Below, piece after piece: positions 49,369-62,788 of a DNA stretch of 64,000 nucleotides. The notes below the pieces were generated by a model. The model worked only from the letters and a program-made list of their open reading frames with translations. It was not told the DNA's origin and ran no database searches. Position 1 is the first letter of the stretch; the number at the start of each line of letters is the position of its first letter. The position numbers and the translations under genes were made by a program. Origin of the DNA: Brachyspira hampsonii. Its GTDB lineage: Bacteria > Spirochaetota > Brachyspiria > Brachyspirales > Brachyspiraceae. The stretch lies in contig NZ_CP019914.1 in NCBI RefSeq assembly GCF_002214805.1, positions 186,001-250,000 on the forward strand, in the 5' to 3' direction.

Positions 49369-50991
49369 TTAATTTTTATTATTTTCTAAATAAGCATAGA
49401 AAAATTTATGCTTGCCTAAAACATCATACTGTACATCTTTCAAATTAGGATTAACAAGTACAGGTAGAGTATAGAAATATAAAGGTATAATAGGCATTTC
49501 CGACATAAATAAATCTTCTGCTTTATGAAGTATAGGCATTCTTACATTATTATCACCTGTAGAAGAAGCCTGAGCTAATAATGCATCATACTGAGGATTA
49601 TTATAACCTTCTACATTTTGAGCACTATGACTTAAGAACATACCTAAAAATGTCATAGGATCATCATAATCTCCAACCCAAGCATTTCTAGCAACTACAT
49701 AAGATTTATCCAAACGAGTTTGCTGAAATACTGCCCATTCTTCGCTTGATATTGTACTGTCTATTCCTAAATTATTTTTCCACATCTGCTGAACAGCTTC
49801 AAATATAGAAGTATGTTCTCCGGGATTAGTCTTAAAATCTAATACCGGAAATCCCTGACCATCAGGATATCCTGCTTCTGCCAATAATTTTTTAGCTTCT
49901 TCTACATTTTTTGTATAATCTTCTGCTTTTACACTGTAATAATCGCCGCCGTTAGTTCTAAAACTTCCATTAACATCTGATATCAAGCCTGGTACAAGTG
50001 CTGCCGCCGGTATCTGTCCTCCCCTTGTAACCTGCTCTACTATGTAATTTCTATCTATAGCCAAAGATAATGCTTTACGAACTCTTACATCTTTTAAAAC
50101 ATCATTGGTATTATTCAAACTATAATAATAAACAGCTAAATATGGTTTTATTTGTAAATATCCTTCCTCTTTTAAAGCATCCATATCCTGAGTAGGAACT
50201 CTGTCAGAGAAATATATAGAACCTTCTTTAATGCCGGCTACTACTGAAGTTCCATTATCCATTAGAACAAATACTAACTTTTTAGGCACTATAGCTGAAA
50301 CATTCCAATAATTAGTATTAACTTCCATAACTATTCTGTCATCAATAGATCTTTCAGTCATTTTAAAAGGACCATTTCCTATATAAGTTTCAGGATTCAT
50401 AGTCCAAGTATCCGGATTAGCCTCTATAATATCCTCTCTTAAAGGGAAATAAACAGGATAAGCCATAAGCTGATCAAAATATGGAGTAGGTGCTTCCAAT
50501 GTTACTTCTAAAGTATTATCATCTAAAGCTTTAACTCCCAATGAATCTACAGGCATTTCTCCTGCTGTAATCTTTTTAGCATTTTTTAAAGGCTCCATCT
50601 GATAACTATAATTAGCAGCTGTTTTTGGATCTGTTGCTCTTCTCCAACTGTAAACAAAATCATATGCTGTTACAGGCTTTCCATCTGACCATTTAGCATT
50701 ACTTCTAATATGAAATACATATTTGGTTCCGTTATCGCTAATATCCCAGCTTTCAGCAACTCCTCCTACTATCCTACCGTCTTTATCCTTATTAGCAAGC
50801 CCTTCAAAAGCATGAATTATATACATACTTCCGTCTATAGCTGAATTCAATGTTGGATCTATTGTTTGAGGCTCTGGTCCTACATTGAGTCTCAATACTC
50901 CTTCCTCATATTTAGAACTTCCGCCGCCGCAAGAAATAGAAAATATAAATATAGACATAGAAAAAATTGCATATTTTAACAGTTTAATCAT
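49369..50991 (-). CDS. Oligopeptide ABC substrate-binding lipoprotein
   Basis: 540-aa family 5 solute-binding protein (OppA/DppA type). Lipobox IFSISC near residue 21. Family marks: PQTIDPTLNSAIDGSMYI, AESWDISDNGTKYVFHIR, WSDGKPVTAYDFVYSWRR and VRKALSLAIDRNYIV. No permease or ATPase genes adjoin it, so it is an orphan receptor feeding a transporter encoded elsewhere. RBS GGAG. Divergent from the second chemoreceptor gene; a joint sensing role is only a possibility. Confidence 0.93.
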   Translation of the reverse strand: MIKLLKYAIFSMSIFIFSISCGGGSSKYEEGVLRLNVGPEPQTIDPTLNSAIDGSMYIIHAFEGLANKDKDGRIVGGVAESWDISDNGTKYVFHIRSNAKWSDGKPVTAYDFVYSWRRATDPKTAANYSYQMEPLKNAKKITAGEMPVDSLGVKALDDNTLEVTLEAPTPYFDQLMAYPVYFPLREDIIEANPDTWTMNPETYIGNGPFKMTERSIDDRIVMEVNTNYWNVSAIVPKKLVFVLMDNGTSVVAGIKEGSIYFSDRVPTQDMDALKEEGYLQIKPYLAVYYYSLNNTNDVLKDVRVRKALSLAIDRNYIVEQVTRGGQIPAAALVPGLISDVNGSFRTNGGDYYSVKAEDYTKNVEEAKKLLAEAGYPDGQGFPVLDFKTNPGEHTSIFEAVQQMWKNNLGIDSTISSEEWAVFQQTRLDKSYVVARNAWVGDYDDPMTFLGMFLSHSAQNVEGYNNPQYDALLAQASSTGDNNVRMPILHKAEDLFMSEMPIIPLYFYTLPVLVNPNLKDVQYDVLGKHKFFYAYLENNKN

Positions 50992-51231: not shown

Positions 51232-53064
51232 ATGTTGGCTAATAATAAAATAAGTATTAGAAATAATAGTTTGATATTTAAATTTTTAATACCATATATG
51301 GCTGCTTTATTTATAATTTGTACTGCTATATACATTTTATATTTTCCTCAGTATAAAATAAGATTTATCAATTCAAATAAATATAATGCATCTGATATTT
51401 CATCTCAAATAGAAAATAATATTTCTTATTTATACGGCAAAATAAATATATTCTGTTCTTATTTAGAAAAAGAAACAAACAGAGATAACTTATTAAATAT
51501 ATTCAAAAATATCATAAAAAATGAACCTAATTTGGTAAATATATTTTATGCTGATACTATACCGTATAAAGACGGAGGAACAGTATTAAATACAGCTGGT
51601 ACATTACCAAGCGACTATGATCAAACATCAAGAGAATGGTATAAAAATGCTATAGCTTCAAAGGAAATAGTAATATCAGAACCTTATGTAGATATTGTTA
51701 CAAAATCTATTGTAGTAACTTTTTCAAAAACTATATATGTGGATGGAAGGCTTTACGGTATTGTAGGAATAGATGTTGATTTTTCTAAAATTATATCTTC
51801 TGCATTAGAAACATCAAAAAAATACGGCTATAATTTAAATATTATCGATAAAGATGGATTGTATATATATAACGAAAATGAAAATAATATATTAAAAGAA
51901 AATATATTTAATAATAAAGATATATCTTCTCATAAAAATGATATTCTTAACAACAATAATTATGCATGGATAGATAAAAAATCATCATACATATCTTCAA
52001 AAATAAGAAACACTAATTGGAATATAATTCTAAATATAGAAAATAAAGAATTAAATTTATCATTATTAAAATTACTTATACTTATAATATCTGTATTTAT
52101 ATTACTATCCGCCATAGAGGCAGTATTAGTCATAGTTATAGCAAAACCTATATCAAATACATTAGACAATACTATTTCAATAATAAAATCTATGTCTAAA
52201 GGTAATTTTAATACCAATTTTGATGAAAAAGAATTGAATAAAAAAGATCAAACCGGAGATGTAATAAGAGCACTTAATGATATGCAAAATAAACTTGGGG
52301 ATATTATTTATAGCATGAAAGATAATATAAATGGAATTAACGATTCTGTTAATATTATTACAAACGGAAATATAGACTTATCTGATAGATCTGTATCACA
52401 GGCAAGCTCTTTAGAAGAGTTAACAAGATCTATAGAATTTGTATTTTCATCACTAAAAGACACTGCTGAAAATGCTGGAAATGCAAAAAACATGAGTGAA
52501 AAAGTATCAAATGCCACAAGAAATGGTGTTAATGCTATAAATTCAACATCAGAAAATATGACTCTAATATCTGAATCTAGTAAAAAAATATCAGATATTA
52601 CAAAAATAATAGAATCAATAGCTTTCCAAACTAATATATTAGCTTTGAATGCATCTGTTGAGGCTGCCAGAGCAGGAGACCAAGGAAAAGGATTTGCTGT
52701 TGTGGCAAGTGAAGTTAGAAACCTTGCTATTAATGTAGGAAATGCTGCTAAAGATATAACCGCAATAGCTAATGAAACTGTTGAAAAAATAAAAAATGGC
52801 AGTGCATCCGTACAGGCTTCATCATACCTACTAAATCAAATAGAATCATCTGTTAATGATGTTCTTACATTACTGACAGAAATATCAAGTGCTATTATAG
52901 AAGAAGAAAACAGTCTTTCTCAAATCAATACTGCTGTTATAGAAATTAATAAAATAACTCAGGTTACTTCTAAAATAGCAAATGACGGAGCAAATGCAAG
53001 TAAAGATGTACTTAATAAGTCAAATAATATAGTAGAGCAAGTTTCTTATTTCAATTTTAATTAA
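51232..53064 (+). CDS. Methyl-accepting chemotaxis protein, dCache sensor (second)
   Basis: 610-aa chemoreceptor. TM1 about residues 17-37, double-Cache domain with [23 protein letters not shown] and [23 protein letters not shown] (family hallmarks, given in parts), TM2 about 278-302, HAMP, then the signalling hairpin with [20 protein letters not shown] and [15 protein letters not shown]. It ends soon after the coiled coil without the long tail of the receptor at 5535. RBS AGAGG. Family knowledge suggests amino acids or small organic acids as ligands. Confidence 0.93.
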
Positions 53065-53313: not shown

Positions 53314-54465
53314 TTATTTTCCCCAAACATCAGGTTCAAACTGTTTATTAACCCTATTATAATCAACAATATCAATACCGTTATAATAGAATTTTAAAAT
53401 CTCTTTATAATCTTTTTTAACCTGAGCCATACCGTAAGCACCCCATTGACACATACCTACACCATGTCCGCTTCCTTTACCAGTGATTATTATACCGTTA
53501 TCAACTTTTTTAATAGTAAAATTAAGTGATGGTACCAATTTAGGAGAAAGTGTAGTTCTGAAATCTCTTGAAGTAATATCACTGTCATCTATTTTTATAT
53601 TAGTAGCTTTTCCGGATTTAGGATCAGTACTAATGCCAATAGAAGATTTTTCATTTGCATGTACAGAATAATTAGCTAAATCATTATTAAGTTCATTGTA
53701 GCTTAAAGCATTAGTCCAAGGTTTAATCTGAGCATTGCAGTAAGGACAAGAAACACCTCCCAAATAAGGTACAGCAACACCGAATACATTTTCAGCACTG
53801 TCAGTATGTCCGCCGCATAAAGCACTAAAGTATGTAGCTATAACTTTTCCTTTATAAACAGCTATCTCATATCTTGTTCTGTCAACTGCTTGTTCAACAG
53901 ACCAATTCATTTTTTCTTTACCATTATAAACTTGATATTTTGTAGTATTATCAACATCAAAAGGAAGTTTATTAGCATTTTTTAATATATGATACATTGC
54001 ATAAGTTCTTGCGGCAACTGCCTGAGCTTTTAATGCTTCCATAGGCCAATCTGGAGACATCTCATGAGGTAAAACCCCTTTAACATAGTCTTCAATATTA
54101 AGCTCATTAACCACTATCATAGTATCATTATACGGAATAAACATTAAAGAACCATAATATTCTTTTCCATTCAATGTAAATCCGTCCTGTGTTTCAAATA
54201 CTATTCCCTCTTTATAAACGCCAACCTCATTAACTTTTAAACCTAATCTGTTTTCTACAACCATCACAGTTTCATTAGTCAAAGCTGATATAATTTCACT
54301 TTCATATTTGTAATTGTATGCCTTATAAGGACCTTTGATATTAATAGTATATGGAGCTTTTACATCTGTTAATTGCACTCTAATAATATTTTGATTTGCA
54401 AATGCATATATACTATTCATCGCTAATAATGCTAGCAATAAAAAGAAATACTTTTTGACTCCCAT
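53314..54465 (-). CDS. SpoIID/LytB domain protein (lytic transglycosylase-like)
   Basis: 383 aa, Sec signal peptide (residues 1 to about 23, ending YAFA), so exported to the periplasm. SpoIID domain with VKGVLPHEMSPDWPMEALKA, which holds the catalytic Glu, AVAARTYAM, SALCGGHTDSAE, GVSCPYC and the C-terminal GKGSGHGVGMCQWGAYGMA. SpoIID cleaves glycan strands lacking stem peptides; in non-sporulating bacteria such proteins act in wall remodelling. RBS AAGGAGG is consensus. It lies next to the surface-modification locus but appears to be a separate unit. Confidence 0.92.
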   Translation of the reverse strand: MGVKKYFFLLLALLAMNSIYAFANQNIIRVQLTDVKAPYTINIKGPYKAYNYKYESEIISALTNETVMVVENRLGLKVNEVGVYKEGIVFETQDGFTLNGKEYYGSLMFIPYNDTMIVVNELNIEDYVKGVLPHEMSPDWPMEALKAQAVAARTYAMYHILKNANKLPFDVDNTTKYQVYNGKEKMNWSVEQAVDRTRYEIAVYKGKVIATYFSALCGGHTDSAENVFGVAVPYLGGVSCPYCNAQIKPWTNALSYNELNNDLANYSVHANEKSSIGISTDPKSGKATNIKIDDSDITSRDFRTTLSPKLVPSLNFTIKKVDNGIIITGKGSGHGVGMCQWGAYGMAQVKKDYKEILKFYYNGIDIVDYNRVNKQFEPDVWGK

Positions 54466-54536: not shown

Positions 54537-57530
54537 TTATTTTAATTCTATTTCTTTTGATTCTTTTGTATTCCAATCAATTTGGAACTTTTTCCAATTA
54601 TTTATATCAAATATATTATCTTTTACATTATAATAATATTTAAAGTTATATGAATTACTTAATTGTCTATCAACCTGCCAGGAATCAATACTTACTATAT
54701 TGACTCCATTCTTTTTATAATCATTTGTTATTATTTTATTATTAAATGGATTGACTGCATTATCAAGATGCTTAGTTACCAAATACGGTGTATCAGCTAC
54801 AGTCATAAAATTAGTATCAATTTTTATATTTCCTTTACTATTAAAATCTTTAAACATTAATAAAGGATTTATACTAGTTACGAAAGATAAATTATTTGAA
54901 TTAAAATAATTATTATATCCCCCGCTTCCATGATCTGAAACTACTATTATCTTAGTATTATCATAAATATTATTATTTTTTAAATATTCTATAATCTTTA
55001 TTAAAGAGTTAATAGCTGCAATATTAACATAAAAAAATCTTACACTAATTTCATTACCGTATATTTCTAAATCCTTACTATCAACATCCTCCAAAATCGT
55101 ATGCGGTAAAAAATCAGAAGCAAAATAATAAGGTTCATGTGTACTTAAGTTATATATCATATTATAATAATTGCCGTTTTCTGTGATATTCATAAAATTG
55201 GTTATAGAATACAAAATAGAATAATGTCTTATACTGGAATTAAATCTAAAAAAAGAAGAACTAGCTAGAAACCACCCTGTATTATTATAAAAATTATACC
55301 TTAAATTTATAGGCATCATTCTAAATAATGAAAATCTTATAGATTTATTTTTTTGATCTATTTCTAAAGTCTTTTCAAAATTAATATTTGTTCCTCCAAA
55401 ATAAATATTCAAACTATAATTTTGAATAGAATCTGACAAATAAGCTGAAATATTAGTGTAATTTTCAAATATACTCAAATCTGGCGTATCTATAAAATTA
55501 GCATATGTAGGTTCTAATAAAACAGACTTATATCCATACTTTTCTAATGACAATGGTATTGTTAATATAGCCTCATTATGTTTATCCCTTAAAAGCTTAC
55601 TTCCATTTGTACTTAATTCAAAAGGTAAATAATCATAACCTCCGTATAAAGAAGCAGTTGTTATAGTTGAGGGACTAAAAGAAACAGTATTTGGATATAT
55701 TGTAAATCCGTCTAGTTTTTCTTTATATTCAGGAAATCTTTCCAAAGCATCTAACCAATAATAATTTACAGCTTTATCAATAAACAAAACTATTATATTA
55801 TTTCCAGTTTTAGATAAATTAAATATCTTAATATTTGATAGTTCATTTGAATTTTTTTTAATACTATTAAGTTTTATATGAGATTTAGATATGTTTGTTA
55901 TATCTAATAATGAAATAATAAGTAATACAGCCAATGTAATATAATTTATATTAATTAAAAATATGCTTTTATTAGATTTTAAAATAAAACCTATAACTAA
56001 ACTTACTATAACTATTAATGAAAAATTCAATAATAATTCTTTAAAAGAAAACTTTAATAAATCAGCATTGTCAAATAAAAATTCATTATTTATATTAATA
56101 TAATTTCCTGTCATTATGAATGTATTTATAAGTACAAACATAACAAAAAATAAAGATAATAAAACAATATAATTTTTAATTTTTTCTGAAAATAAAGTAT
56201 AAATGCATATAGGATAAAATAAAAAAATCCCAATGCTCATAGAAAAATTGTTTATAATTAAATAAAATGGAGATGAAAATTCCTGAGGAGAATTAGATAT
56301 AAGAGATGACAATATAAAAAGTCCTGATAATATAGTAATTGTTAAACAAGAAGTTATCATCAATTTGAATCTGTTTTTTTCAAAAGATTTTATTAAATAA
56401 TCTTTATCAAATATAAATTTATATATATTAGATAAATGCACAATAAAAGTAATAAAAATTAAAAATAAATATATATTAATAGAATAACTTCTAGGAGATA
56501 ATCTATAATATATAATAATATCATCTTTTATATTTTCAATTTTATCTTTTAAAATTAAAGTAGATGTTATTGTACTATCACCGCTATATTCTATACTAAC
56601 TACATTATTATCTAATTTATCTTTATCACCAATAAAGGAAAATATATCACTTGTAATAAAAACCTTGCTATAATATTTTACTCTGGCACTATAAAAATAT
56701 CCATCTCTATCATTTATAAATTCAAAATCTGATAGATATCCTTTTCTTTCTATATTGGCAAAAGACATTAATAATATAAACAATACTGTAATTACAATAA
56801 ACAATATATTATATGCTTTTAATAATTTATATTTATTTCTAACAAATACCTCATATAGTTTAAACTCTATTACAATATTTTTTATTAAAGAGAATAAGCA
56901 ATTAATAGTCCAATAAAATAGAAGACCTGAAGGGGAAGTATATAATAAAACTAAAAATATTAATGATACTATATATAGCGGTAAACTTTCTTTAAATCTT
57001 AATTTCCTAGCATAAACAAATCCCGCTAATAGACTAAATAAAGTCATTATAAAAGGAAGTAAATTAATACTAATACTTCCAATATGAATCAAAGCATCTG
57101 GGTTAGCTAAATCTTTAATAAATAAAAAACTCTGTCCATTTAAACCTGATATACTATGTACAAAATTATACGCTGCAATAAAAAACGGTATCTGTATTAA
57201 TAGTCCTAAAGTACCGAGAAAAGCATATATTGTTTTATATCCATTTATCCTTTGACAAGCTCTTATAAGTAAATATCTTTGATCTCCTTTATATACAGCT
57301 TTAATATTATCAATCATAGGCTTCATCTTATCCTGAATAGCTCTCTCTTTAGCCTGCCAAGATTCTGCTATGTTATATAAAGGAAGTGATAAAAAATTTA
57401 TACATAAACTTAGAAAAAATAAACTTATTCCATAACCTGATTGAAATACTGTATTAAATAGATAAAATAATATTTCTATAATTAATTCTATTGGATAAAT
57501 GAAAATATTATAAAGTATATCAAAAAACAT
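54537..57530 (-). CDS. YidC/Oxa1-like domain fused to alkaline-phosphatase/sulfatase-superfamily domain
   Basis: 997 aa. Residues 1-225 are a clear YidC/Oxa1 fold: LGLLIQIPFFIAAYNFV, FLFIKDLANPD, LLPFIMTLFSLLAGF, SPSGLLFYWTINCLFSLIKN. The groove Arg of YidC appears replaced (CINFLSLPL where IIIRLLILP stands in SpoIIIJ), so insertase activity is doubtful. About nine further membrane segments lead to a C-terminal catalytic domain (about 575-930): metal-site LFIDKA, nucleophile region SPSTITTASLYGGYD, STHEPYYF and VVSDHGSGG. These fit phosphoethanolamine or phosphoglycerol transferases. Start at ATG 57530, seven bases after GGGGG. Last gene of the locus with eutH and licCA; role in decorating a surface polymer is inference. 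Confidence 0.82.
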   Translation of the reverse strand: MFFDILYNIFIYPIELIIEILFYLFNTVFQSGYGISLFFLSLCINFLSLPLYNIAESWQAKERAIQDKMKPMIDNIKAVYKGDQRYLLIRACQRINGYKTIYAFLGTLGLLIQIPFFIAAYNFVHSISGLNGQSFLFIKDLANPDALIHIGSISINLLPFIMTLFSLLAGFVYARKLRFKESLPLYIVSLIFLVLLYTSPSGLLFYWTINCLFSLIKNIVIEFKLYEVFVRNKYKLLKAYNILFIVITVLFILLMSFANIERKGYLSDFEFINDRDGYFYSARVKYYSKVFITSDIFSFIGDKDKLDNNVVSIEYSGDSTITSTLILKDKIENIKDDIIIYYRLSPRSYSINIYLFLIFITFIVHLSNIYKFIFDKDYLIKSFEKNRFKLMITSCLTITILSGLFILSSLISNSPQEFSSPFYLIINNFSMSIGIFLFYPICIYTLFSEKIKNYIVLLSLFFVMFVLINTFIMTGNYININNEFLFDNADLLKFSFKELLLNFSLIVIVSLVIGFILKSNKSIFLININYITLAVLLIISLLDITNISKSHIKLNSIKKNSNELSNIKIFNLSKTGNNIIVLFIDKAVNYYWLDALERFPEYKEKLDGFTIYPNTVSFSPSTITTASLYGGYDYLPFELSTNGSKLLRDKHNEAILTIPLSLEKYGYKSVLLEPTYANFIDTPDLSIFENYTNISAYLSDSIQNYSLNIYFGGTNINFEKTLEIDQKNKSIRFSLFRMMPINLRYNFYNNTGWFLASSSFFRFNSSIRHYSILYSITNFMNITENGNYYNMIYNLSTHEPYYFASDFLPHTILEDVDSKDLEIYGNEISVRFFYVNIAAINSLIKIIEYLKNNNIYDNTKIIVVSDHGSGGYNNYFNSNNLSFVTSINPLLMFKDFNSKGNIKIDTNFMTVADTPYLVTKHLDNAVNPFNNKIITNDYKKNGVNIVSIDSWQVDRQLSNSYNFKYYYNVKDNIFDINNWKKFQIDWNTKESKEIELK

Positions 57531-57631
57531 CACAAAACCCCCAAGAAATAATTTTCTTCGAGTTTATGATTTTTTTTATAAAAAACTGATTTATATAAAA
57601 AGTAAAATCTATACTGTTGACTGTTAATCAT
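57530..57631 (-). CDS. Small coupled ORF upstream of the YidC fusion gene
   Basis: 33 codons, starting MINSQQYRFYF and ending EENYFLGVL, with a good ribosome site (GAGGAAATATATG). Its TGA overlaps the ATG of the YidC-fusion gene as TGATG, the classic arrangement for translational coupling, and a TATAAT lies upstream near 57650. The peptide is basic and aromatic-rich with no membrane helix. It may be a leader that opens the downstream start, or a small protein; I cannot tell. Confidence 0.45.
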   Translation of the reverse strand: MINSQQYRFYFLYKSVFYKKNHKLEENYFLGVL

Positions 57632-57681
57632 ATATTTCCTCTACATTAATTATATTGTATTTTATACCAAAAGTAAATAAA

Positions 57682-58806
57682 TCAATTATCATTTTTTAAT
57701 GCTATTTTAGATACAAAGTAAGCTGCAATTATGGCTGTTACACCGCCAATGAGTTTAGCAACTATCATAGGAAATATCATACTTTTATACTCTCCGCCTG
57801 CATAACCAGCTGTAAATCCTAAATGGTCTCCAAATGTAAATGCCGCACTAACAGCAAATGCACAATTAATAATTTTTCCTTGATTATTCATATCTTTCAT
57901 TATATTAAACATAGGTATATTATTTGCTAAAGTTGCAACTAAGCCTGCAGCTCCTACATCATTCATGCCTAATTTTTTGCCTATAGACTCCAAAGGCTTT
58001 GAAGCTGCTTTAGTAAGTACAAATACAAGCGGAAAAGCTCCTGCCAATACAAATGCTATGCTTGCAACTGTGGTAACAGCATCTGATATAGGAGACATTG
58101 TGATTGTTTGATTATCAATAGTAAATTTTATTATTTGAATACCAGTAAGAACTTCTATAACGGCAAATACTAAACCTATAGTAATTAATATAACTAGAAA
58201 TTTAGAAAATATATCAAATACTTTTATCAAAATATCTCTTATAAATATTAATCCTAAAGTGAGAAGTATTGACACTATAATTATTGGTATAAGATTTTTT
58301 ATTAAGAATATTATACCATACCCTGCCGCAAGTCCTCCGAAAAAGGCTCCTATAGGTATAGTAATCATACCAGAAGCTATACCCAAAGCCAAATACTTAT
58401 GATCTTCTTTATTGATAATACCAATAGCAACAGGAATACTAAAAACTATAGTAGGTCCCATCATAGCCCCAACTATAAAAGCTGAAAACTTTCCTGCATT
58501 TACATCTTGAGCAAACTCTAATGCTAAAGGAGCACCTCCCATATCATTAGCAAGTATTGTTGTAGCAAACATAGCCGGATCTGCTCCAAGTGCCGTATAT
58601 ATTGGAACTATAATAGGTTTTAATAATGCTGCTATTACAGGAGCAAGACATATAATGCCTATCATAGATAAAGCCAAAGCTCCCATAGCATTAAATCCCG
58701 CTTCAAACTGTTCACCAAGACCAAATTTATTGCCAATGATTTTATCTATAGCTCCTAAAACCATAAACAAAATCATTATATACAAAATTATCTCATTTAT
58801 ACTCAT
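57682..58806 (-). CDS. eutH: EutH-type ethanolamine permease
   Basis: 374-aa polytopic inner-membrane protein (about 10 segments) matching the EutH family throughout: FNAMGALALSMIGIICLAPV, TILANDMGGAPLA, GASGM-like GIASGMITIPIG, FTFGDHLGFTAGYAGG. EutH allows ethanolamine uptake when it is scarce or protonated. No eut catabolic or microcompartment genes are near; instead it lies 24 bases downstream of licCA, so imported ethanolamine (or choline) is probably phosphorylated for surface or lipid synthesis rather than broken down. Confidence 0.92.
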   Translation of the reverse strand: MSINEIILYIMILFMVLGAIDKIIGNKFGLGEQFEAGFNAMGALALSMIGIICLAPVIAALLKPIIVPIYTALGADPAMFATTILANDMGGAPLALEFAQDVNAGKFSAFIVGAMMGPTIVFSIPVAIGIINKEDHKYLALGIASGMITIPIGAFFGGLAAGYGIIFLIKNLIPIIIVSILLTLGLIFIRDILIKVFDIFSKFLVILITIGLVFAVIEVLTGIQIIKFTIDNQTITMSPISDAVTTVASIAFVLAGAFPLVFVLTKAASKPLESIGKKLGMNDVGAAGLVATLANNIPMFNIMKDMNNQGKIINCAFAVSAAFTFGDHLGFTAGYAGGEYKSMIFPMIVAKLIGGVTAIIAAYFVSKIALKNDN

Positions 58807-58830
58807 GTGATTATATAGCCTATCAATATA

Positions 58831-60288
58831 TTAATTCAAATTAAAATATGACAAATTTTTATGAAGACCAGCAATATGATATCTCATATACTCATAAGAC
58901 TTATTCATAATACCCCATAATGACCATATATAATTATGTATAATCTGAGCCTTTCTTACTCTTAAATCATCTAAACCATTATAAGATTTTAGTAATTTAG
59001 CCCTTCTTTCATCATCTATATCAGACTCGCATACAAAACTAGCTATATCCAAATAATTAGAAGTAAAACCAGAATATTCAAAATCTATTATCTTAACATC
59101 GCTGCCATTATACAAAATATTTCCAAATAATAAATCTAAATGACATAAAACCTTTTCATCTTTATCTAGTTCCTTAGCAGAATTATGAATAAACTCTCTT
59201 TCTTTTTCTGTTACCAAACTAATAGGAACTAATTCTTCATATTTTAGAATTTTATTATGCATAAACAGAGGAACAAATCCAGGATTGTCTTTTAATTTAA
59301 TCTGATGCAATTGTTCTAGTCTTTTCATAAAAAGAGATAAAAACTTTTCATCTATATCATCAAACTCTAAATCCTTATATCCTTCCAAATAATTAGTTAT
59401 TTTAATATCATAATCAAAGAACATACTTTTAGGAGCAATTTCTTCAGAAACTAATGACATAATATGTTTTTCTGCTGGTCTGTCAATAAACTTTTCTGTA
59501 CCTAATCCCGGAATTCTTATTACTTTTTTATCACCATTAAAAGTTATTTTATAATTATAATTAGTTAATCCTTTTAATCTTAGAGCTTCTCCATTATCAG
59601 AACACTGTTTAGCAATATCCTCAAAAGTTAAAGTATTAGTCATAATTGCATCTTTAAAAGAATCTACTTCTGTTACAATATCTTCTGCCTCACTAATATA
59701 GAACTCAATTCTATTTAATGCTCTGAAAACAGCATATTCCCAATATTCATCATCTGTACAATTATCAAGTTCTTCTTTTATAGTATCAACATATTCGCCT
59801 GCAAAATAAGCAATTCCTGTTTCCCCGTATCTTCCGCTAGTTGCATCTTCAATAATCTTTATAAGTTTCTTTTCTTCATCAACAACATATTCCCACACCA
59901 TCACATTTTTTATTTCCTGAGATAAAAATTGACATTCATTAGGTTTTATATATTCAAAAAAAGATTTTTTAATATATAAATCTCCATTCATTATTATAGT
60001 ACCATTAGCTATTTCATCTTTAACTAATTTTAATGATGCACTGCTGTTTTTAGATGCAAAATCTGAAGATACAACTTTTTTAAATCCTAACTTTTTTTGC
60101 AAAGGATCAAATAATTCATGCTTATAACCTGTAACAACAGTAATATCATCAACTCCGCCTTCTCTCAAAATATCAATAGCATTTTCTAATATAGTTTTTC
60201 CATGTATCTCAAGTAATGGTTTTGGTTTAACTAAAGTCATAGGAAGAAGTCTAGTACCTTTTCCAGCTGCAAGTATTATAGCTTTCAT
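58831..60288 (-). CDS. licCA: LicC-LicA fusion: CTP:phosphocholine/ethanolamine cytidylyltransferase and choline/ethanolamine kinase
   Basis: 485-aa bifunctional cytoplasmic enzyme. Residues 1-235: nucleotidyltransferase with LAAGKGTRLLPMT, KPKPLLEI, IMNGDLY and a C-terminal EVDSFKDA. Residues 250-485: kinase of the aminoglycoside-phosphotransferase fold with catalytic loop HLDLLFGNIL and metal-site IDFEYSG. Together they turn choline or ethanolamine into the CDP derivative. A LicCA protein of this order serves phosphatidylcholine synthesis in Treponema denticola. Here no CDP-alcohol phosphatidyltransferase is adjacent; EutH and a CDP-glycerol-transferase-like gene are. RBS AAGGAG. Confidence 0.9.
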   Translation of the reverse strand: MKAIILAAGKGTRLLPMTLVKPKPLLEIHGKTILENAIDILREGGVDDITVVTGYKHELFDPLQKKLGFKKVVSSDFASKNSSASLKLVKDEIANGTIIMNGDLYIKKSFFEYIKPNECQFLSQEIKNVMVWEYVVDEEKKLIKIIEDATSGRYGETGIAYFAGEYVDTIKEELDNCTDDEYWEYAVFRALNRIEFYISEAEDIVTEVDSFKDAIMTNTLTFEDIAKQCSDNGEALRLKGLTNYNYKITFNGDKKVIRIPGLGTEKFIDRPAEKHIMSLVSEEIAPKSMFFDYDIKITNYLEGYKDLEFDDIDEKFLSLFMKRLEQLHQIKLKDNPGFVPLFMHNKILKYEELVPISLVTEKEREFIHNSAKELDKDEKVLCHLDLLFGNILYNGSDVKIIDFEYSGFTSNYLDIASFVCESDIDDERRAKLLKSYNGLDDLRVRKAQIIHNYIWSLWGIMNKSYEYMRYHIAGLHKNLSYFNLN

Positions 60289-60326
60289 AAAAATAACACT
60301 CCTTATTGTTTATGATATTAAAATTA

Positions 60327-61607
60327 TTAATTCAATTCTGCAAGCATTTTACTTAAAACTAAAGCTCCGTTTCTAGCAGCTTCACCTCGGCATTTATAAG
60401 CCTCATCTTTTGCTTTTATAATATTATCTTTTAATGAAGTATTGTTAATGGTATCATTTACTATATTTGAAATATTAGAAAAATTATTCTCATCTAAAGA
60501 TACAGTTATTTTTGGCAAAGTTTTTAAAGTCCAAGTTTCCTCTTTAAGTTCTATAGCATCATAGCCCCTTTTATCGAAAGTAAAACTAGGTATAATTGTA
60601 GGTTTTTCAAAGAGAAAAGCATAATCCAATATAACGCCAGAAAAATCAGATATCATAACATCAGCTCTTGATAATGAATAAATATTATCCCTATTAAAAT
60701 CCCATTCTATATTGGCATTATCCTTATATTTATTTTTTAATCTTTTAAGCATATCTTTTTCAACTATACTAGATTGAGGATGAGGGCGTATTATAACATA
60801 ATATCCGCTGTCCAAAATAGGATCTATAACTTTTTCACCAAACCTATTAAGAAGTCCGTTCATACCCCAAGATGGTGCTATTAAAACAGTTTTTTTATTC
60901 TCTACTTTAGTAATAGATTTTGAAGCTTCCTCTTTCTTTTTATTAAGTTCATCTAAATAAGTACTTCCTATCATTTCCAATTCTTTTACTTTAGTGCCTC
61001 TTGTATCTTCCAATTCTCTTATATCCGATATTTGATTTTCACCGCTTAATAATACTGCATCAAAAAAATCTAAAGAATATAAACAATACATAGCAGATTC
61101 ATTTGGAGCATGAAATATATGCACATATCTTTTTACACCTTTAGAACGTTTTAATTGAAATACATCTAAATTCGGAGTAGTCATTAAACAAATATCTGCT
61201 TCTATAAAATTAAGTTTAGCATAAGCCATATTACCTACACCTATAAATTCAGTGTGAAGTAAATCATTCTTTATTTCAAATATAGGATCATCTTCGCTTG
61301 AACTATAATATATAACAGGTATTTCTAATTTTATTAGCTCTTCTATTATAGGTTTAAATACATTGCAGTATCTTTTGTCCTCTCCGTAAATTATTATTCT
61401 CGCCTTTTTAGAAGCCTCTGTTTCTATATTTTTGCTTTTAGAAAAAGACATAGTTTTTAATTTTATAAGAAGTGCTTTAGAAAGAAAAAATAAAGTTCCT
61501 ATAATTCCAAAAAGTGCTGAAAAAAGCAAACTTCCTGTACCCGGATCTATATATCCAAATACATTACTCTGGCATAGTATAAATAAAGCAAATACAGTAA
61601 TTAACAT
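60327..61607 (-). CDS. CDP-glycerol glycerophosphotransferase family protein (TagB/TagF-like)
   Basis: 426 aa. Two N-terminal hydrophobic segments around a GYIDPGTGS motif (residues 18-26), then the TagB/F-type catalytic region: HIFHAPNESAMY, VLIAPSWGMNG, YYVIIRPHPQS and SRADVMISDFSGVILDYAFLF, which correspond to the nucleotide-sugar-transferase-like C-terminal site with its HPQS and DxSG motifs. The family moves an alcohol phosphate from a CDP donor to a surface polymer. Next to licCA it is the obvious candidate to use CDP-ethanolamine or CDP-choline instead of CDP-glycerol; this is inference. First gene of the locus, RBS AGGA. Confidence 0.82.
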   Translation of the reverse strand: MLITVFALFILCQSNVFGYIDPGTGSLLFSALFGIIGTLFFLSKALLIKLKTMSFSKSKNIETEASKKARIIIYGEDKRYCNVFKPIIEELIKLEIPVIYYSSSEDDPIFEIKNDLLHTEFIGVGNMAYAKLNFIEADICLMTTPNLDVFQLKRSKGVKRYVHIFHAPNESAMYCLYSLDFFDAVLLSGENQISDIRELEDTRGTKVKELEMIGSTYLDELNKKKEEASKSITKVENKKTVLIAPSWGMNGLLNRFGEKVIDPILDSGYYVIIRPHPQSSIVEKDMLKRLKNKYKDNANIEWDFNRDNIYSLSRADVMISDFSGVILDYAFLFEKPTIIPSFTFDKRGYDAIELKEETWTLKTLPKITVSLDENNFSNISNIVNDTINNTSLKDNIIKAKDEAYKCRGEAARNGALVLSKMLAELN

Positions 61608-61744
61608 GTCTATTCCTAAAAAATTAATATATCATAAATTATATAATATATAAATTGAAAAATCAAACTAATTTATAAAAAATAATATAGCCTATTCATA
61701 ATTTATACGAATAGACTATATGAAATGATGTTATAAAAAATTAA

Positions 61745-62788
61745 CTACTTAGTATAAATTTTTCCGTTATGCTTTTCTTTTATTTTTTGAACAGTATCAG
61801 ATATCATATTAACAGATTCCATAATATCAGCAAACACATCAGGCTTTATAGACTGTGCTCCATCGCATAAAGCATGCTCAGGATCATTATGTACTTCTAT
61901 AATCATACCGTCAGCACCTGCAGAAATAGCTGACAATGTGAGAGGAAGTGCCATCCATGATTTTCCGCTGGCATGCGAAGGATCTCCTATAACAGGCAAA
62001 TGGCTTAAACGCTTTATTGAAGGTATTGCACTTACATCAAATGTATTTCTAGTATAAGTTTCAAATGTTCTTATACCTCTCTCACATAACACAACATTTT
62101 CATTGCCTTGATTGAGTATGTACTCAGCACTCATAAGCCATTCTTCTATAGTATTTGATAAACCTCTTTTTAAGAGTATAGGCTTTTTTAATTTTCCTAC
62201 TTCTTTTAAAAGTTCAAAGTTCTGCATGTTTCTTGCCCCAATCTGAATCATATCCACTGTATTATCAAAATCTTCTAAATGCCTTATAGATACAATCTCA
62301 CTTACAATAGGTATGCCAACCTCTTCTTTTGCAAGCTTTAATATTTTAAGTCCGTCCAAAGCTAAACCCTGAAATGCATAAGGAGAAGTTCTAGGCTTAA
62401 ATGCTCCGCCTCTAAGTATAGAAGCTCCAGAAGACTTTACACTTTTAGCTATATTAATAACCTGCTCTTCACTTTCAACAGAACAAGGTCCTGCAATAAT
62501 TACAGGCTTACCTTCTCCTATTTTTACACCGCTTACATCAACTACAGTATCTTCTTTTTTGAACGCCCTATTTGCTCTTTTAAATGGTTCCTGCACTTTT
62601 AATACTTTAGATACTCCGGGTAAAGATGAAATTAAATCTCTATCTATCTTTGAAGTATCCCCAACCATACCTATTACTGTGTAGTCTACTCCTACACTTT
62701 TATTTATGCCAAGACCTGCATTTTTAAGTCTTTCTATAATGTTATTAATATGTTCTTCTTTGGCATTCGGTTTCATTACCACTATCAT
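61745..62788 (-). CDS. aroF: 3-deoxy-7-phosphoheptulonate (DAHP) synthase, type I-beta
   Basis: 347 aa; joins phosphoenolpyruvate and erythrose 4-phosphate at the start of aromatic amino-acid synthesis. A ferredoxin-like N-terminal regulatory domain (residues 1-70) precedes the barrel, as in the Thermotoga enzyme, where it mediates tyrosine inhibition. Core motifs: IIAGPCSVES, LRGGAFKPRTSPYAF, GARNMQN, KRGLSNTIEEW, PVIGDPSHASG. Strong RBS AAGGAG. Preceded by a leader region encoding an aromatic-rich peptide and a hairpin, so probably also controlled by attenuation. Confidence 0.95.
   Translation of the reverse strand: MIVVMKPNAKEEHINNIIERLKNAGLGINKSVGVDYTVIGMVGDTSKIDRDLISSLPGVSKVLKVQEPFKRANRAFKKEDTVVDVSGVKIGEGKPVIIAGPCSVESEEQVINIAKSVKSSGASILRGGAFKPRTSPYAFQGLALDGLKILKLAKEEVGIPIVSEIVSIRHLEDFDNTVDMIQIGARNMQNFELLKEVGKLKKPILLKRGLSNTIEEWLMSAEYILNQGNENVVLCERGIRTFETYTRNTFDVSAIPSIKRLSHLPVIGDPSHASGKSWMALPLTLSAISAGADGMIIEVHNDPEHALCDGAQSIKPDVFADIMESVNMISDTVQKIKEKHNGKIYTK

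Follow-up and report, generated by a model that had tools for sequence, protein, structure and literature searches.

A modular envelope-decoration cassette predicted in Brachyspira: EutH and LicCA beside a TagF-like transferase and a YidC-AlkP fusion

In the lic1 locus of Haemophilus, a headgroup is imported, phosphorylated by a kinase, activated with CTP and transferred to an envelope glycan. A related activation is known from the Pnt pathway, where the LicC-like enzyme PntC forms the CMP or CDP derivative of aminoethyl-phosph(on)ate (Rice et al. 2019, PMC6697681). The transfer step was left open in that work, with LicD-like proteins or glycosyltransferases suggested for its clusters; Brachyspira, CDP-glycerol-type transferases and YidC are all unmentioned there. 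The locus described here comes from Brachyspira hampsonii and occupies positions 54537-61607 of a 64,000-nucleotide stretch of DNA (the window; contig NZ_CP019914.1, positions 186,001 to 250,000). It encodes the permease EutH, a LicC-LicA fusion (LicCA), a TagF-like transferase and a fusion of YidC with an alkaline phosphatase (AlkP) superfamily domain. These four genes probably, though by no means certainly, form an accessory envelope-decoration cassette, in which a constant chassis is combined with an exchangeable headgroup module that would make CDP-ethanolamine (less likely CDP-choline) for the envelope.

At the level of single genes the resemblance to lic1 is partial. A lic1-like scheme was the core of the original prediction, made for this locus from its sequence, and it stands for the LicA- and LicC-type enzymes, which are fused here. 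The place of the LicB permease, however, is held by EutH, and LicD is absent; the transfer, predicted to lead to an envelope glycan as in lic1, is assigned to the TagF-like and YidC-AlkP proteins. LicD (PF04991) was found in 0 of the 26 Brachyspira genomes of a genus survey, in which genome content was assessed family by family, and in both of two control genomes. On this basis, LicD-type transfer was ruled out. Unlike lic1, the locus also has no short-repeat phase-variation tract, and no tetranucleotide repeat array is present at 58831-60288. The likeness is closer in some relatives, where LicCA adjoins a permease of the EamA family, to which LicB belongs (survey genomes G001, G011 and G024, and a second locus of G014). 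With the Pnt pathway, the locus shares a LicC-like activating enzyme, and the same chassis is accompanied by PepM, Ppd, PhnW and PntC-like genes in Brachyspira alvinipulli and other spirochetes. In contrast to that pathway, a candidate for the transfer step is at hand in the TagF-like/YidC-AlkP pair.

All four open reading frames (ORFs) are intact, lie on the minus strand and end where they had been placed before. The predicted series of four consecutive leftward genes was confirmed by the ORFs together with domain searches: YidC-AlkP (54537..57533, 998 amino acids; its GTG start is followed directly by ATG), EutH of the ethanolamine permease family (57682..58806, 374 amino acids), LicCA (58831..60288, 485 amino acids) and the TagF-like transferase (60327..61607, 426 amino acids). 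The genes are separated by 38 base pairs (bp) between TagF-like and LicCA, 24 bp between LicCA and EutH and 148 bp between EutH and YidC-AlkP.

The pairing of the TagF-like and YidC-AlkP proteins was surveyed in 393 spirochete genomes (E <= 1e-26 for TagF-like and E <= 1e-50 for YidC-AlkP; lists compiled by hand). Both proteins were found in 103 genomes, only one in 3 and neither in 287. The pair hence co-occurs in 103 of the 106 genomes with either member (Fisher p 8e-92, a value that ignores relatedness), and the TagF-like positives span 40 genera. The single-member genomes are G221, which is 66% complete, and G021 and G023, which are about 85% complete. Among 59 loci, YidC-AlkP lies less than 200 bp from the TagF-like gene in 40 and less than 5 kb from it in 50, while 30 of the loci have a LicC-like enzyme and 10 a PEP mutase. 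These neighbourhoods suggest that the pair is the constant chassis and that the genes beside it are interchangeable modules. In many Treponema-like loci (L112:10160-12151, L123:10234-12060 and about ten similar ones), a LicC-like enzyme fused to a class I/II pyridoxal phosphate (PLP) enzyme (HisC/CobD-like) stands beside the pair. The LicC-PLP fusion may be a further headgroup module, derived from phosphoserine or threonine phosphate; one guess is a decarboxylase route, with phosphoserine to phosphoethanolamine as the candidate reaction.

In Brachyspira, the same chassis occurs with LicCA and EutH, with LicCA and an EamA permease, or with phosphonate genes. Full LicCA is found in 10 of the 26 genomes. 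In six of these it is 95-96% identical to the LicCA of the window (or is that protein), and EutH lies directly beside it in 6 of 6. The phosphonate set of B. alvinipulli comprises PepM (PEP mutase), phosphonopyruvate decarboxylase and PhnW (2-aminoethylphosphonate transaminase), all above the NCBIfam cut-offs, as well as a LicC/PntC-like enzyme. A second cassette in G018 contains an alcohol dehydrogenase (best NCBIfam match PsrA, 212 bits, under the cut-off) and no transaminase; judged from its gene content, the product would be hydroxyethylphosphonate (HEP). In G006, LicCA and EutH stand beside a leftover PntC-like gene and an MFS gene, a pair that G002 and G008 have with their phosphonate module, and this looks like a recent module exchange. 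The phosphonate module of G008 itself looks decayed (L048 4945-7849), with the PEP-mutase gene in two frames and a shortened decarboxylase. The content of the slot between the genes for DAHP synthase and a SpoIID protein, where the cassette of the window resides, varies. In G017 and G021 the slot is closed, with the flanks 125-181 bp apart, and an alcohol-dehydrogenase-like gene occupies it in the five near relatives G004, G005, G007, G009 and G015. Some cassettes lie elsewhere in the chromosome (e.g. G001, G003 and part of G011). The four genes had been read as one pathway. The co-occurrence survey did not refute this, but they are no fixed set: EutH and LicCA proved to be one of several swappable modules on the chassis.

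The TagF-like protein starts with a membrane segment containing the motif YIDPGTGS, followed by a GT-B-like TagF domain (PF04464, E 6e-8, above the cut-off). TarL and TagF are its only sequence matches in the PDB, and the top 10 Foldseek PDB matches of its model (pLDDT 87) are TagF and CDP-ribitol-bound TarL. H166, R274-P-H276-P, D321, S323 and D328 are invariant in 42 homologues, and all of them lie within residues 161-426. The fold and the motifs of the CDP-alcohol phosphotransferases of PF04464 are both present. The protein shares with TagF and TarL the fold, the CDP-alcohol donor family and the invariant His/Asp motifs, but it is only 14-16% identical to them, has 426 residues with the YIDPGTGS membrane segment and presumably uses CDP-ethanolamine or a CMP-phosphonate as donor. 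Wall teichoic acid is not known from spirochetes.

The two halves of the TagF-like protein behave differently, as was found for 11 Brachyspira genes (a small sample). Residues 1-160 are 87-99% identical across the modules, and 75-84% in the divergent genomes G001 and G003. For residues 161-426, identity within a type is 89-97% (EutH-EutH), 81-90% (EamA-EamA) or 89% (2-aminoethylphosphonate (AEP) type), whereas between types it falls to 78-81% (EutH-AEP), 62-64% (EutH-EamA) and 49-53% (HEP against all others). The two copies of G018 are 99% identical in the first half and 49% in the second, and for G024 (EamA) against G006 (EutH) the values are 97% and 62%. The catalytic half has been exchanged along with the module, which suggests that residues 161-426 are matched to the activated headgroup, a strong hint from a small sample. 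This points to the TagF-like protein as the enzyme that selects the activated headgroup. A divergence that merely mirrors the species phylogeny is disfavoured, since the first 160 residues encoded by these genes show no such sorting.

Outside the spirochetes, a contig scan with two peptide patterns for the TagF-like protein gave only short matches to the N-terminus, in two archaeal contigs, and no relative was found in viral contigs. In the archaeal contigs (L066 and L067; Nanoarchaeales, UBA583), the match to the YIDPGTGS membrane motif extends over about 49 residues. G173 has a second TagF-like gene, a divergent one, with YidC and AlkP as separate ORFs after it (L105:12853-17000). Together with L146, L149 and L151, which carry a stand-alone YidC-like gene, this locus suggests split versions of the YidC-AlkP fusion.

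The fusion protein of the window consists of a YidC-like part with five transmembrane (TM) helices (residues 1-228), a TM segment with a beta domain (~229-347; beta ~261-347), a second TM block (~349-562) and a periplasmic-type AlkP-superfamily domain (~571-998). The YidC core, the beta domain, the second TM block and the AlkP domain are seen in its AlphaFold model (pLDDT 87). The N-terminal part matches YidC (PF02096, E 2e-21, residues 34-222), with TIGR03592 just below its cut-off (82.2 versus 84.3), and the C-terminal domain matches Sulfatase (PF00884) at E 5e-4, below gathering. The weak Sulfatase match was firmed up by the resemblance of the modelled residues 576-998 to LtaS/LtaP, MCR-1, YejM/PbgA and sulfatases. 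MCR-1, PbgA, LtaP and LtaS ranked first in Foldseek, and VIA-align gave Z ~19-21 for residues 576-998 to LtaS/LtaP (~19-20), YejM and sulfatases; the alignment to PbgA begins at residue 376 and has a large root-mean-square deviation. These comparisons of the full model are dominated by the AlkP domain and barely probe the beta domain and the YidC part. On the evidence of the model, the shared AlkP fold fits a transferase or a hydrolase alike. All 37 homologues (mean column identity 33%) carry D586, T623, H799, D867 and H868 without exception, with the roles of Thr nucleophile and metal ligands assigned by motif and not by coordinates, and the site looks active. LtaS/LtaP, EptA/MCR-1 and PbgA/YejM have the same order of a TM block and an AlkP domain with the nucleophile Thr and the metal-ligand motif residues kept, but the YidC-AlkP protein has YidC-like and beta domains in addition at its N-terminus. 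PbgA is not known to have an active site, whereas the YidC-AlkP family appears to retain one.

E. coli YidC is matched by profile, and the alignment to it fixes the column of the groove Arg of insertases (R366 position). This Arg is replaced by N, S or T in 37 of 37 YidC-AlkP homologues. Purified YidC, Oxa1 and other insertases were shown to scramble lipids in vitro (PMC10491306), and by analogy a lipid-moving role of the YidC domain is plausible. The AlkP domain does not sort by module: that of G006 (EutH) groups with that of G024 (EamA) at 76%. It would therefore more likely see the acceptor or a common intermediate. The TagF-like and YidC-AlkP proteins had both been named as possible transferases, but they are not equivalent alternatives: the catalytic half of the former tracks the donor module, and the AlkP domain of the latter does not. 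A second, orphan YidC-AlkP gene (924 amino acids) is present in the window's genome, G000 (C1:3145473-3148244, L167:7465-10239), with no TagF-like gene near it, and orphan copies of this kind also occur in other Brachyspira genomes.

EutH matches PF04346 (E 4e-136) and scores 559 bits against the cut-off of 482 for the NCBIfam EutH subfamily; a PDB sequence search with it gave no relative. LicCA combines NTP_transferase and Choline_kinase (PF01633, E 2e-16) domains, with the LicC half at residues ~1-220 and the LicA half at ~236-485. Its best PDB matches are Streptococcus pneumoniae LicC (1jyk, E 5e-26) and a choline kinase (4r77, E 2e-15; profile 3e-26). Outside the six genomes with both EutH and LicCA, EutH occurs only in G013 and G021, the sole two of the 26 Brachyspira genomes with EutB. 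The six themselves contain neither EutB nor LicD. In line with the original prediction, eut catabolism was ruled out, EutB being absent from G000. That no CDP-alcohol phosphatidyltransferase is present is true of the locus, but the genome (one 3.19 Mb contig) has exactly one, PgsA, which scores above the curated cut-off. No choline or ethanolamine phosphotransferase of the CDP-OH_P family was found in G000, where PgsA is the only member. The Kennedy phospholipid route was rejected on this ground. On the supported side stand the proposed logic of import, phosphorylation, activation and transfer, EutH beside LicCA in all six genomes, and, for the window's genome, the absence of EutB and LicD and PgsA as the sole CDP-alcohol phosphatidyltransferase.

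The sequences themselves show the gene content, the gene fusion, the pairing of the chassis, the swapping of modules, the donor-linked divergence within the TagF-like protein and the lack of those alternative sinks that were looked for. In the scheme that we infer, the more conjectural elements are which headgroup is used, what accepts it, which of the two transfers comes first and what YidC does. EutH would import ethanolamine (with choline as second choice), the LicA half would phosphorylate it, and the LicC half would form the CDP derivative. The membrane-associated TagF-like protein would then take the CDP-headgroup (or a CMP-headgroup with other modules) at the cytoplasmic face and move the phospho-headgroup onto an acceptor, probably a lipid or a lipid-linked glycan. 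Subsequently, the YidC domain may hold or flip this lipid intermediate. In the last step, the LtaS/EptA-like AlkP domain, with its catalytic residues kept, would pass the headgroup to the envelope acceptor at the outer face of the inner membrane.

The headgroup of the window's cassette is likely ethanolamine. This is favoured by the EutH family itself and by the 75-77% identity of the cassette EutH to EutH of the two EutB genomes G013 and G021. It is also favoured by the catalytic half of the EutH-type TagF-like protein, which is nearer the AEP type than the EamA type, aminoethylphosphonate being a near-isostere of phosphoethanolamine. The same system may instead carry phosphocholine, with EutH recruited for the import of choline as LicB or BCCT transporters are elsewhere. 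The closest solved relatives of LicCA are choline enzymes, and the EamA-type relatives resemble the choline modules of lic1, yet in view of the EutH and TagF-like comparisons choline is rather unlikely. The aromatic residues of the choline pocket (equivalents of W136 and Y190), which the LicC half keeps, do not discriminate between choline and ethanolamine, because a characterised PntC that prefers AEP has aromatic pocket residues as well (PMC6697681). An improbable alternative is that LicCA feeds phospholipid synthesis (a CDP-choline or CDP-ethanolamine Kennedy branch) and that the chassis genes are mere neighbours. Such a setting is probable in Treponema. In seven Treponema-side genomes with full-length LicCA (G043, G167, G173, G054, G339, G275 and G307), 2-4 CDP-alcohol transferases are found; in the three neighbourhoods read, a BCCT-type choline/betaine transporter (Pfam-assigned in two) adjoins LicCA or stands two genes away from it, and the distance between LicCA and the TagF-like gene exceeds 180 kb in G043 and G167. 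LicCA would accordingly occur in two settings, with the Brachyspira enzyme belonging to the TagF-like/YidC-AlkP chassis: here it is found inside the chassis, 38 bp from the TagF-like gene, phosphonate genes replace it in relatives, and the single CDP-alcohol phosphatidyltransferase of G000 is PgsA. A LicCA/CDP-choline route to phosphatidylcholine was reportedly described for Treponema denticola by Kent and colleagues in 2004. The LicC-LicA fusion is common to both settings, but the Treponema-side enzymes examined differ by their winged-helix N-terminus, their BCCT neighbour and the several CDP-alcohol transferases of their genomes. This winged-helix domain was observed in L162:5963-7750 (with a Pfam match), L163:4953-6737 and L168:7031-8806.

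As simple as the two-step relay is the assumption that the TagF-like protein alone transfers the headgroup onto a glycan precursor in the cytoplasm, and that YidC-AlkP performs another envelope step on the same product (acceptor editing, headgroup removal or lipid handling). The donor-linked divergence is found in the TagF-like protein and not in AlkP, and the AlkP fold includes hydrolases. In addition, three (L099) or four (L132) tandem YidC-AlkP genes lie beside a single TagF-like gene, which suggests several acceptors or steps. However, membrane AlkP enzymes of this layout (LtaS and MCR-1, among the top Foldseek matches) are mostly headgroup transferases, and the near-perfect co-occurrence argues for a joint step, so that this division of labour is possible but doubtful. 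A chance neighbourhood could be suspected, as the slot is an accessory island that is empty or otherwise filled in several genomes; it is extremely improbable in view of the co-occurrence over 393 genomes and the module-linked divergence within one gene. Several observations nevertheless weigh against the proposed cassette or parts of it. About half of the loci in the phylum have no recognised activation gene within 9 kb, and YidC-AlkP copies are located elsewhere or fragmented in some Brachyspira (G022, G006). The kept aromatic box in LicC makes choline a possible headgroup. That AlkP does not track the module would fit acceptor recognition but also an unrelated envelope task, and the flippase role of YidC draws by analogy on published insertase scrambling, with the groove Arg lost here. 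The literature yielded neither biochemical nor structural data on how Brachyspira decorates its envelope.

In the literature searched on Brachyspira choline kinase and on spirochete proteins with YidC and AlkP-superfamily domains, of which few subscription papers were covered, the system is not described. The activation logic was already known from lic1 and Pnt. What was not found in the literature searched is the transfer pair, with its linkage throughout the spirochetes and its modular loading. How bacteria attach activated phosphonates, CMP-aminoethylphosphonate for example, to their surfaces is an open question (PMC6697681), and for spirochetes the TagF-like/YidC-AlkP pair now provides named candidates for this step. 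With the modules swapped naturally in Brachyspira, it becomes possible to map donor specificity onto one half of a single protein. Host immune recognition can be influenced by phosphocholine, phosphoethanolamine and phosphonates on the surface, and strain-to-strain surface differences are predicted in gut spirochetes. It is conceivable, as a tentative extension, that spirochetes share a two-part decoration machine loaded by phosphoethanolamine, phosphocholine, aminoethylphosphonate or hydroxyethylphosphonate modules, in which donor specificity is swapped, together with the module, by recombination inside the gene of the TagF-like protein, a cytoplasmic CDP/CMP-headgroup transferase, while YidC-AlkP flips and re-transfers the headgroup. 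If true, phosphonate tailoring would have its missing transferase in this machine. It would then also be, to our knowledge, the first known use of the YidC fold in lipid-linked headgroup transport.

In two EutH-type cassettes, a gene for a SAM methyltransferase is located upstream of LicCA (G018, L040:4319-5035; G022, L042:184-906), and its product might methylate the headgroup. On its left side, the cassette of the window is flanked by the gene for a SpoIID/LytB-domain protein (53314..54465, minus strand), 71 bp from YidC-AlkP, with which it could share a transcript. On its right side lies the DAHP synthase gene (61745..62788, minus strand), which flanks the slot in most genomes whether a cassette is present or not. 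Between DAHP synthase and the cassette, a terminator-like 16-pair hairpin with a T-rich tail was found by pattern match (61685..61721, minus strand; 4 sites of this pattern found versus 1.9 expected). A promoter-like site (TTGATT-17-TATAAT, 61638..61666, minus strand) lies 31 nucleotides upstream of the TagF-like ATG; it is a consensus match only, and the count of such sites in the region equals that in shuffled sequence. Further to the left, an ORF on the plus strand (51232-53064) that resembles a methyl-accepting chemotaxis protein stands between the SpoIID gene and that of an oligopeptide-binding protein (49369-50991). In G005 (L215:5668-5811) and G004 (L216:6105-6241), the intact DAHP synthase gene has short duplicates of its 5' part next to it.

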